Source of the DNA: Hymenobacter sp. CRA2
Lineage (GTDB): Bacteria; Bacteroidota; Bacteroidia; Cytophagales; Hymenobacteraceae
Length of the DNA: 64,000 nt
Assembly (NCBI RefSeq): GCF_002007105.1
Contig: NZ_MVBC01000004.1
Coordinates: 1 to 64,000 of the forward strand
Direction: 5' to 3'
Shown: one piece after another, positions 12,978-16,883 of the stretch
Numbering within the stretch: the first letter of the stretch is position 1
How the letters are laid out: every line of letters starts with the position of its first letter
The notes under the pieces: model-generated
Databases searched by the model: none
Seen by the model: only the letters and a program-made list of their open reading frames with translations
What the model was told of the DNA's origin: nothing
Position numbers and translations under genes: made by a program

Positions 12978-13156
12978 GGAAATCAGCATCGGCGAAGGCC
13001 CCGCCGGGTAGCGGGTACTTTGAGGCGGGGCACGAAAATAGCGTGCCAGTTTGCTCGGTGGTGCCTTAACGCAGGCGGCCGCCGGAATATTCCCCGACGG
13101 CCGGGCTTTTCCGAGGCGGCGTGTAACCTTTCGCGGTGGCTTGCATAGAAAGCAGC

Positions 13157-14215
13157 ATGAAGCAGCAATCCTCCCGCAACTCCACCTGGCTGAAGGCCGC
13201 CGGCATCGGCGCCGCCGTGGCCGCAGCCGCGCTCTGGGCCAACCGCCGTGGCTCCTATGACCTGCGCGGCCGCGTCGTGCTCATTACTGGCGGCTCGCGC
13301 GGCCTTGGCCTGGTACTGGCCCGGCAAGCCGCTGCTGAAGGGGCCAAAGTCGCCATCTGCGCCCGCGACGCCGACGAGCTGGCACGTGCCCGGCAGGAGC
13401 TGGAAGCCGACGGCGCCCGCACGGTACTCACGCTGGTGCGCGACCTGTCCGACGAAGCCGCCGTGCGCACCATGGTGACGGAAGTGCGGGAGCAGCTCGG
13501 CCCCATCGACGTGCTCATCAACAACGCTGGCATCATCACCGGGGGGCCGCTGGAGCACATGGAGCTGCGCGACTACCAGGAAACCATGGACATTCACTTC
13601 TGGGCCGCGCTGCACGCCATGTACGCCGTGCTCCCCGAAATGAAAAAGCGTCGCCAGGGCCGCATCATCAACATCGCCTCGGTAGGAGGGAAGGTGTCGG
13701 TGCCGCACTTGGCTCCGTACTGCGCCAGCAAGTTTGCGCTGGTGGGCCTGTCCGAAGGCTTCCGCGCCGAGCTGCTGCGCTACGGCGTGTACGTAACCAC
13801 CGTATGCCCGGGCCTGATGCGCACCGGCTCGGCCCGCCACGCCGTGGTGAAGGGCCAGCACGTGCTGGAGTTTGCCTGGTTTATGATTTCGGACTCCTTA
13901 CCGGCCCTCACGGTAGGCGCCGACTACGCCGCCCGGCAGATCTGGAACGCCGCCCGCCGCGGCGACGCCGAGCTGATTCTGGGCCTGCCCGCCAAAATTA
14001 TTTCGCTGCTGCACGGCGTGGCCCCCGGCACCGTGGCCAACCTGATGAGCTGGGTGAACCGCACCCTGCCCGACGCCACCGGCCCCGCCGGCGACGCGCG
14101 CCGCCGCGGGTTCGAGAGCGAGTCGCCGGTAACCAAATCGTGGGTTACGGGCCTCACGCGCAAAGCCGAGCGCGAAAACAACCAGCTTAACGACCATCCG
14201 CCGTACCCGGCTTAG
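13157..14215 (+). CDS. SDR family oxidoreductase with N-terminal membrane segment
   Basis: 352 residues. A short hydrophobic N-terminal segment (WLKAAGIGAAVAAAALWANR) precedes a classical short-chain dehydrogenase domain. The cofactor motif is TGGSRGLG (about residue 50), with NNAG in the middle and a catalytic YxxxK in PYCASKFALVGLSEG. NAD(P)-dependent oxidation or reduction of an unknown alcohol or ketone is expected, with the enzyme anchored to the membrane. I chose the ATG at 13157; GTG at 13136 is the alternative. A strong terminator follows. Confidence 0.9.
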   Translation: MKQQSSRNSTWLKAAGIGAAVAAAALWANRRGSYDLRGRVVLITGGSRGLGLVLARQAAAEGAKVAICARDADELARARQELEADGARTVLTLVRDLSDEAAVRTMVTEVREQLGPIDVLINNAGIITGGPLEHMELRDYQETMDIHFWAALHAMYAVLPEMKKRRQGRIINIASVGGKVSVPHLAPYCASKFALVGLSEGFRAELLRYGVYVTTVCPGLMRTGSARHAVVKGQHVLEFAWFMISDSLPALTVGADYAARQIWNAARRGDAELILGLPAKIISLLHGVAPGTVANLMSWVNRTLPDATGPAGDARRRGFESESPVTKSWVTGLTRKAERENNQLNDHPPYPA

Positions 14216-14260
14216 GCGTCAGGAGCCGCTTAAGTCTGCCTATCGGGCAGAAGACTTCAA

Positions 14261-14305
14261 CCTACCGCCCACCCGGCCGCGCCCGGGTGGGCGGTAGGTG
14301 TTTTT
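14261..14305 (+). terminator. Intrinsic terminator, convergent genes
   Basis: A perfect 16-bp stem (CCTACCGCCCACCCGG with its complement) and a 6-base loop, then GTGTTTTT on the plus strand. It lies between the SDR gene and the minus-strand NTF2-like gene and may serve both. Confidence 0.85.
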
Positions 14306-15655: not shown

Positions 15656-15904
15656 AACGCGAACCGGACTAGAAGTGCCTCCTAAAAGTAGCCGATAATC
15701 CAGTCGCTAAGGCAGTTGCTCAGCCGTCGGATAGCGGCTGTTGTCGCGGCATGCCCGCCCTGCCGCTGTAGTTGCAGGAGCCAACTACACGTAGCAGCGC
15801 AAAGAAAAACGCAACGCCCCGCGCGAAGACAACCAGCGGGGCAACTGCGCATCAGGCCTGGGCGGAAGCCCGGTAAGTGGTTGAAATAAAATTTAACCAA
15901 AAGC

Positions 15905-15933
15905 TTGGATGTTCCCAAACTTTTGCATCTTTG
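15905..15933 (+). promoter_or_regulatory. Promoter of the phhA leader
   Basis: TTG at 15905-15907, 18 bases, then CATCTTTG at 15926-15933. This fits the Bacteroidota TTG-N19-TAnnTTTG pattern with one mismatch in the minus-7 box. It ends 4 bases before the ATG of the leader peptide, so the leader ORF would start almost at the RNA 5' end. Confidence 0.6.
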
Positions 15934-15937
15934 CCGT

Positions 15938-16045
15938 ATGCTTCACCTCTGCCAGTCGCAGTATTATTATTACCGTCCCTGCCAGCCCACCGGCTTCGGC
16001 AGTGGTCGTGTATGCGCGACGGCACCCCGGAAGCAGACGATGTAA
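15938..16045 (+). CDS. Putative leader peptide with four tandem Tyr codons
   Basis: A 35-codon frame beginning MLHLCQSQYYYYRP and ending QTM, stop at 16043-16045. Codons 9-12 (15962-15973) are TAT TAT TAT TAC. It begins directly after a promoter-like element and ends 27 bases before a textbook terminator. The next gene, phenylalanine 4-hydroxylase, makes tyrosine. This is the arrangement of amino-acid attenuation control, in which scarcity of charged tRNA-Tyr would stall the ribosome and allow read-through. Seen in sequence: Tyr run, terminator and gene order. Inferred: the regulation itself. Confidence 0.6.
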   Translation: MLHLCQSQYYYYRPCQPTGFGSGRVCATAPRKQTM

Positions 16046-16110
16046 CGTCTCACCAGGAACCGCTTCATACCCGCCCCTCTCCGATAGCCGGAGAGGGGCT
16101 TTTTGTTTTT
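16002..16110 (+). promoter_or_regulatory. Putative tyrosine attenuator: terminator and candidate antiterminator
   Basis: The terminator is an 11-bp perfect stem (GCCCCTCTCCG, 16073-16083, with CGGAGAGGGGC, 16089-16099) followed by TTTTTGTTTTT. A candidate competing pairing is 16002-16014 with 16066-16078 (GTATG with CATAC, then interrupted G:C pairs), which would occupy the first bases of the terminator stem. An earlier hairpin (CTGCC 15979-15983 with GGCAG 15998-16002) could hold the upstream strand when no ribosome stalls. The terminator is certain by eye; the alternative pairings are tentative. Confidence 0.6.
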
Positions 16111-16136
16111 CACGCTTCCCCAACCTCTTGTCAGCT

Positions 16137-16883
16137 ATGACGACCCTCCAACAACACTACGACCAGTACACCGACGAAGACCGCCACGTATGGAAGCTTC
16201 TGTTTGAGCGCCAGCTCCAGGCCTTGCCTGGCCGCGCCGCGCCCGAGTTTATGGAAGGCCTGGCCCGCATCGGCTTCACGGCCGACGTGATTCCGGATTT
16301 CCGCCAAACCAACCAGGTACTGCGCCGCCTCACCGGCTGGGAAATCGTGCCCGTGCCCGGCATCGTGGACGACGCGGTGTTTTTCGGTCTGCTCGCTGCC
16401 CGCAAGTTTCCGGCGACTACCTGGCTGCGCAAGCTCTCCGAGCTGGACTACCTCGAAGAGCCCGACATGTTTCACGACGTGTTCGGCCATGTGCCGCTGC
16501 TCACCAACGCCTCCTTCAGCCGCTTCCTGCACCAGCTAGGGCACGTAGGTTCGTTGCACGCCTCCAACCCTGCCGCCGTGGAGCTGCTGGCGCGCCTCTA
16601 CTGGTTTACGGTGGAGTTTGGCCTCATCCGCGACGCGGGCAGCGGCGAGGCGCGCATCTACGGTGCGGGCATCCTGTCCTCGGCCGGCGAAACGCGCTAC
16701 AGCCTCAGCGCCGAGCCGCGGCGGCACAGCTTCAGCCCGGTGGGCGTGCTGGCTACCGCGTTTCGCAAGGACGTGTTCCAGACCGATTACTTCGTGGTCG
16801 ACTCGCTGGAGCAGCTCTACGCTACCCTGCCCGAGGTGCAGCGCCAGTTGCGCGAGGCGCCGCTAGTGGCGGAGCTGGCGTAA
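16137..16883 (+). CDS. phhA: Phenylalanine 4-monooxygenase
   Basis: 248 residues, the usual size for a bacterial single-domain enzyme. It hydroxylates phenylalanine to tyrosine using oxygen, tetrahydropterin and non-haem iron in the cytoplasm. The iron ligands are visible: H113 and H118 in MFHDVFGHVP, and E160 in YWFTVEFGLI. Other family features are PDFRQTNQVLRRLTGWEIVP and the C-terminal DVFQTDYFVVDSLEQL. The ATG at 16137 (MTTLQQHYDQYTDEDRHVWK) lies 27 bases after the T-run of the leader terminator. The frame stays open upstream, but that region is the leader. Expression is probably set by read-through of that terminator. Confidence 0.95.
   Translation: MTTLQQHYDQYTDEDRHVWKLLFERQLQALPGRAAPEFMEGLARIGFTADVIPDFRQTNQVLRRLTGWEIVPVPGIVDDAVFFGLLAARKFPATTWLRKLSELDYLEEPDMFHDVFGHVPLLTNASFSRFLHQLGHVGSLHASNPAAVELLARLYWFTVEFGLIRDAGSGEARIYGAGILSSAGETRYSLSAEPRRHSFSPVGVLATAFRKDVFQTDYFVVDSLEQLYATLPEVQRQLREAPLVAELA

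Follow-up and report, generated by a model that had tools for sequence, protein, structure and literature searches.

A putative tyrosine-codon attenuator upstream of phenylalanine hydroxylase in Hymenobacter and other Bacteroidota

The ribosome-mediated amino-acid attenuators of biosynthetic operons include the trp, his, phe, thr, leu and ilv leaders. The leader region described here, found upstream of a phenylalanine hydroxylase gene (phhA) of Hymenobacter sp. CRA2, resembles these systems in its frame rich in codons for the pathway product, in its protector, antiterminator and terminator pairings and in its position just before the gene, but differs from them in its Tyr codons, its phenylalanine hydroxylase target, its occurrence in the Bacteroidota and its probable leaderless start; it also matches no Rfam leader family. 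The his, thr and phe attenuators are mentioned in an earlier report (PMC1262725). Nearer to the present case are the putative attenuators ahead of tyrA operons, one of them in Bacteroides thetaiotaomicron (PMC1173090), as there too attenuation was proposed for genes of the tyrosine pathway; these are terminator/antiterminator predictions, the word "leader" is absent from the main text of that article and the target is not phhA. Clues to leader-peptide attenuation of amino-acid operons have also come from a member of the same phylum, Flavobacterium psychrophilum, the genes not being named in the passage concerned (PMC9723704). The uORFC-13-1 motif upstream of aroF shares with the phhA leader a short frame and a terminator before an aromatic-pathway gene; it belongs to another gene, and the passages on the motif do not mention a Tyr codon run (PMC8632094). 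Among the papers listed by searches of the open full-text literature, none dealt with a Tyr leader at phhA. As far as we have seen, the mechanism is of a known kind, while the amino acid, the gene, the phylum and the probable leaderless start are new.

The gene proposed to be regulated, phhA (16137–16883, plus strand), lies in the window, the whole stretch of 64,000 nucleotides that was analyzed, and its product, phenylalanine 4-hydroxylase (PAH; PF00351, 159.5 bits, E 1.4e-46), is the enzyme which makes tyrosine from phenylalanine. Upstream on the same strand is a leader peptide frame of 35 codons, MLHLCQSQYYYYRPCQPTGFGSGRVCATAPRKQTM, running from the ATG at 15938 to the stop codon at 16043–16045 (15938–16045) and carrying the presumed regulatory codons TAT TAT TAT TAC (four Tyr, 15962–15973). 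This is followed by an intrinsic terminator hairpin (16073–16099, plus strand; -24.1 kcal/mol) with a perfect stem of 11 bp (16073–16083 with 16089–16099) and a 5-nt loop, and then by the T tract TTTTTGTTTTT (16100–16110), with the ATG of phhA at 16137. An earlier note on this DNA had described the 35-codon frame with its four consecutive Tyr codons, a perfect 11-bp terminator with its T tract and phhA just after it, and each of these is present. The Tyr run of the leader is not a product of chance, as none of 5000 dinucleotide shuffles of the 350 nt upstream of phhA yielded a frame with four Tyr in eight codons and the run is kept in all eight genus genomes, with three to five Tyr codons. The short frame ahead of phhA, the translation of which is predicted, is conserved in the manner of a coding sequence: in a genus alignment of nine sequences the indels within the frame are all of 3 nt, and those outside it are of 1–2 nt.

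The promoter-like element reported previously upstream of the frame was also located, but the sigma-70 reading was dropped as the element is better described as a Bacteroidota -7 box. This box, CATCTTTG (15926–15933, plus strand), agrees with the Bacteroidota consensus TAnnTTTG at five of six positions. The -7 box of Flavobacterium psychrophilum was mapped at -12 to -5, in a study where leaderless mRNAs made up only 5.5% (PMC9723704). A box at this distance would place the start of transcription 0–2 nt before the leader ATG, and in the window on its A, at 15938; as the spacing was measured in F. psychrophilum, the start site at the window is one that we infer. With the 40 Pontibacter-type leaders left out, 47 of 55 leaders have, within 25 nt, a box agreeing with TAnnTTTG at five or more of the six positions; it ends 4–6 nt ahead of the leader ATG in 40 of the 55, a placement shared by only 28 of the 780 other ATGs of these regions. 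Given this position of the box, the Tyr leader is probably leaderless. In the Pontibacter type the box is apparently located further upstream, as judged by eye from 12 sequences.

The promoter region is overlapped by an inverted repeat of 12 pairs, CAAAAGCTTGG..CCAAACTTTTG (15898–15925), and a gene for an AraC-type regulator adjoins the phhA locus in divergent orientation. Both features would suit an arrangement in which phhA is controlled mainly at its promoter, for example by a regulator acting on the repeat, with the leader only fine-tuning expression. This we consider unlikely, though less so than the other alternatives discussed below, since the repeat is by eye absent from the upstream regions of the genus relatives that were compared, whereas the leader is kept, and since the leader is also kept in five relatives in which a short-chain dehydrogenase gene is its upstream neighbor.

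We are highly confident, from the comparison of leaders and the compensatory changes within them, that the region is a trp-type ribosome-mediated transcription attenuator which senses charged tRNA-Tyr and controls phhA. The tyrosine attenuator reading put forward in the earlier note is thus supported, with transcription-translation coupling, ribosome stalling and the response to tyrosine as its predicted components. The segments of the switch would all lie on the plus strand. Segment 1 (15955–15961) is the 5' arm of a protector hairpin and pairs with the 3' arm at 16014–16020; segment 2 (15992–16018) is the 5' strand of the antiterminator; segment 3 (16061–16089) is the 3' strand of the antiterminator and overlaps the terminator (3:4) in its 5' arm and loop. 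The pairing of 16002–16014 with 16066–16078 that had been suggested before is predicted as well, but it is the lower half of this longer helix. Transcription would start on the leader ATG or no more than about 2 nt away from it, with the ribosome loading on the 5' end of the message. When Tyr-tRNA is sufficient, the ribosome would clear the Tyr codons and the protector (1:2) could form behind it, leaving the terminator to end transcription close to 16110. A shortage of Tyr-tRNA would instead stall the ribosome on the Tyr codons, so that it covers segment 1, and segment 2, being freed, would pair with segment 3 while the terminator 3' arm was still to be transcribed. Termination would then fail, phhA would be transcribed and tyrosine would be made from phenylalanine.

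Compensatory changes support a switch of the trp type, in the protector and terminator within the genus and in the antiterminator among 40 Pontibacter-type leaders. Across the nine genus sequences, 92.1% of 63 protector cells are paired, a level reached by 5 of 500 shuffles, and in the window itself five of the seven protector pairs form. Two protector pairs are changed on both sides, in six cells compared to 2.9 in shuffles; it is only the number of cells that is higher, as the number of such pairs (two) is not above that in shuffles (1.7; 356 of 500). The terminator is paired in all 99 cells, with two pairs and eight cells changed on both sides, and on cells none of 500 shuffles was as high. 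Of these two changing terminator pairs, one is not used by the antiterminator, and for the other the antiterminator pair fails in four of nine sequences.

Within the genus the antiterminator does not vary and so carries no covariation, 18 of its 22 pairs being the same in all nine sequences and none being changed on both sides. In the Pontibacter-type leaders 476 of 614 antiterminator cells pair and 54 cells are changed on both sides, as against 21.3 in shuffles (none of 300 as high). In 19 Hymenobacter-type leaders 294 of 384 cells pair, and the six double changes, compared to 7.8 in shuffles, lend no support. The covarying antiterminator that the earlier note had proposed to look for is therefore seen in the Pontibacter type, and neither in the genus nor in the Hymenobacter type. 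The two types (g138 and g2, respectively) are genera of the window's family, their names having been inferred from matching records. A second comparison dealt with the duplex that the terminator 5' arm and loop form with the segment lying 3' of the Tyr codons. For 73 of 87 loci no more than 5 of 100 mononucleotide shuffles did as well (median z -2.9), and the cognate partner outperformed the mean foreign partner in 22 of 23 sequence groups. The window's own duplex is not unusual in this respect (z -0.95; 17 of 100 mononucleotide shuffles as good), and for its group the cognate partner is equalled by 7 of 22 foreign partner groups. It is on the 87-locus duplex comparison and the Pontibacter-type covariation that an antiterminator excluding the terminator is indicated.

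The effect of ribosome occupancy was predicted by folding the window leader up to the terminator loop, a stage at which the terminator 3' arm has yet to be transcribed. The mean probability of the antiterminator was 0.0 if the RNA was left uncovered from the ATG onwards and rose to 0.08, 0.70 and 0.87 as the first exposed position was moved to 15975, 15980 and 15986, respectively, so that by folding alone the predicted threshold is exposure from 15980. The antiterminator is thus predicted once the RNA is covered to about 6 nt past the last Tyr codon; with the usual ribosome footprint, stalling at either the third or the fourth of the Tyr codons would give such coverage. For the complete leader at equilibrium the terminator is favored at every ribosome position (P 0.998), at -50.0 kcal/mol as against -42.9 kcal/mol with the antiterminator forced (a gap of 7 kcal/mol), and the predicted switch must therefore be kinetic. 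Over the 87 loci, pairing of the terminator arm with upstream sequence increased by more than 0.2 in 36 when the Tyr codons were covered, and decreased to that extent in one. In most Pontibacter-type leaders such covering changes little, and no protector is predicted in their free RNA.

All eight genus genomes encode a PAH of the window type together with a paralogue of 42–47% identity. Each of the eight window-type genes has a leader with three to five Tyr codons starting 167–175 nt before the gene start, and the Tyr run is absent upstream of all eight paralogues. A covariance model of the leader (R1), for which 150 of 322–634 first-look candidates were scored per genome, gave one strong full-length match in each genus genome, directly before the window-type phhA in every case; the other matches fell on the terminator part, beginning near model position 138, or were weak full-length ones, with E 2e-4 or worse. 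No Tyr leader was seen directly upstream of the TyrA genes of four genus genomes, and plasmids gave no match.

The C-terminal part of the leader peptide, C(Q/P)P(T/S)GFGxGRVC, is conserved in the genus as well, which would be expected if the leader attenuated phhA in response to some other signal, either as an arrest peptide for phenylalanine or pterin or through general slow translation. We find this improbable. The conserved part overlaps segment 2 and the protector arm, for which reason RNA pairing can explain its conservation; leaders of other lineages retain the Tyr run and the alternative pairing with a different peptide following the run, and Tyr exceeds all other amino acids in the leader frames.

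This last point comes from a wider survey in which 207 PAH upstream regions were pooled (96 loci, partly from the best 80 of 580 matches, with 51 and 60 from further searches) and scanned for a same-strand ATG frame of 10–75 codons within 350 nt having at least four Tyr in eight codons. Such a frame occurred in 105 of the 207 regions on the same strand and in none on the reverse strand, and the next amino acids, Ala and Leu, reached 26. When regions sharing the same last 200 nt were counted once, 195 distinct regions remained, 95 of them with a Tyr leader; 20 dinucleotide shuffles of the full set gave 0.55 on average and 3 at most. A terminator, called from a folding energy of -9 kcal/mol or lower and a T tract, was present in 87 of the 95 regions with a Tyr leader and in 46 of the 100 without. 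One misplaced locus (L102), with its frame found antisense, was counted as a row without leader in both sets and left out of the tree. Tyr leaders were seen in Hymenobacter, Pontibacter, Marivirga, Roseivirga, Fulvivirga and Echinicola and also in MAG records, with seven qualifying loci from other families (L103, L109, L118, L120, L121, L122, and L129). The distribution of the leader over a 138-row PAH tree takes 14 changes to explain, compared to 44.8 in shuffles (none of 500 as low). Within the window's family 71 of 74 loci with the window PAH type carry the Tyr leader, this type being set by an E-value limit (best E at or below about 2e-77) and not as a tested clade, with the loci of 74 of the 79 family genomes covered. 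The three without it are L152, L187, and L195, of which L195 has a leader of the paralogue type. The comparison of orthologous leaders advised by the earlier note largely bears out its reading, the Tyr runs and terminators being kept in the window's family and in other lineages.

The 100 distinct regions without a qualifying frame comprise paralogues, Algoriphagus-type loci and many others. The paralogous PAH genes have a conserved leader of their own without a Tyr run, within about 190 nt upstream (L009–L016, L190, L193, L195, L200–L203, L207, L208, and L126), consisting of a short frame that reads ..NIRPxxDGVGLLCRYGS in the Hymenobacter type, a terminator, and a GGAGTCGGGCT-type stretch complementary to the 5' arm of this terminator. 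From its sequence it looks like a second attenuator for some other signal. Hymenobacter-type genomes often have two PAH genes about 1 kb apart, and in the five in which both upstream regions were compared (G378, G386, G379, G389, and G367) the Tyr leader is found at only one. Algoriphagus-type short frames such as MNPTPRTYVHHSY.. carry only one to three Tyr; these loci (L046, L058, L062, L063, L067, L081, L084, L090, L104, and L105) share a 17-codon frame, M(N/S)PTPRT(Y/F)(V/I)HHS.., upstream of PAH, several having a terminator. In some Algoriphagus-type and related loci an aroF-like reading frame was noticed upstream by eye. At gathering scores, Rfam identified only two tRNAs in the window, and L001 had no match up to E 1. 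Over five loci the only matches, to microRNA families, to MicC and, in one weak case, to Thr_leader, fell below the gathering scores; they were on L195 and L049 and were rejected.

The closest plus-strand gene found upstream of the leader in the window encodes a short-chain dehydrogenase (13136–14215, PF00106), about 1.7 kb before the leader. A terminator-like hairpin of 17 pairs (14260–14299) is located 3' of this gene, between convergent genes. As this nearest upstream gene has a terminator-like hairpin of its own, the hairpin before phhA is not needed by another gene of the window, and the previous statement that no other plus-strand gene upstream requires it holds for this stretch. In five relatives (L004–L008) the dehydrogenase gene ends about 270–290 nt before phhA, and the hairpin could serve it there. 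That the hairpin ends an upstream gene or is a stray one, with the Tyr frame a chance open frame, is nevertheless a most improbable explanation, one largely contradicted by conservation: hairpins resembling that of phhA are common in the genus genomes (short matches over the terminator part) and a terminator is present in the 46 regions without a Tyr leader counted above, but two minus-strand genes sit between dehydrogenase and leader in the window, no dehydrogenase was found within 1.5 kb upstream in L002 and L003, the leader is kept in all of these relatives, and the frequency of Tyr leaders exceeds that in shuffles about 170-fold.

The distribution of the leader was also considered together with that of TyrA. 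Of 79 family genomes with the window PAH type, 34 lack the TyrA C-terminal domain (PF20463), compared to 1 of 42 paralogue-only genomes and 3 of 29 without PAH (together 4 of 71; Fisher p 6e-8, a value not corrected for kinship). When the 38 genomes lacking PF20463 were searched with PF02153, none of the 34 passed the cut-off, with six or seven weak matches below it, and the sole paralogue-only genome did pass. All 34 TyrA-less window-type genomes have the Tyr leader, and the three window-type loci without one (L152, L187, L195) belong to genomes with TyrA. On a tree of 70 window-type PAHs the TyrA state needs 21 changes, hardly fewer than the 23.3 for shuffled labels, indicating that TyrA has varied many times; well-supported branches account for at least nine changes, on a PAH tree that is not a species tree and has 23 of 67 inner branches weak. 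TyrA is present in the genome of the window, so that phhA need not be its only source of tyrosine. On the basis of mutant fitness, PAH has been proposed to serve tyrosine synthesis together with TyrA in Echinicola vietnamensis (PMC7311316), and Tyr leaders were found in two other Echinicola species (L064, L080).

Taken further, we lean towards the view that a widespread leaderless Tyr-codon attenuator in the Bacteroidota made PAH a tyrosine-regulated biosynthetic enzyme, and that this bypass allowed the repeated loss of TyrA; here may lie a reason why TyrA became dispensable in many lineages. The leader is likely a tyrosine feedback switch for a bacterial phenylalanine hydroxylase, and as such it suggests which PAH copies are biosynthetic rather than catabolic. 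If the proposed mechanism is true, transcription and translation would be coupled closely enough in the Bacteroidota for ribosomes stalled on leaderless messages to control termination, and the phhA leader offers a ready test of both this coupling and leaderless initiation in the phylum.
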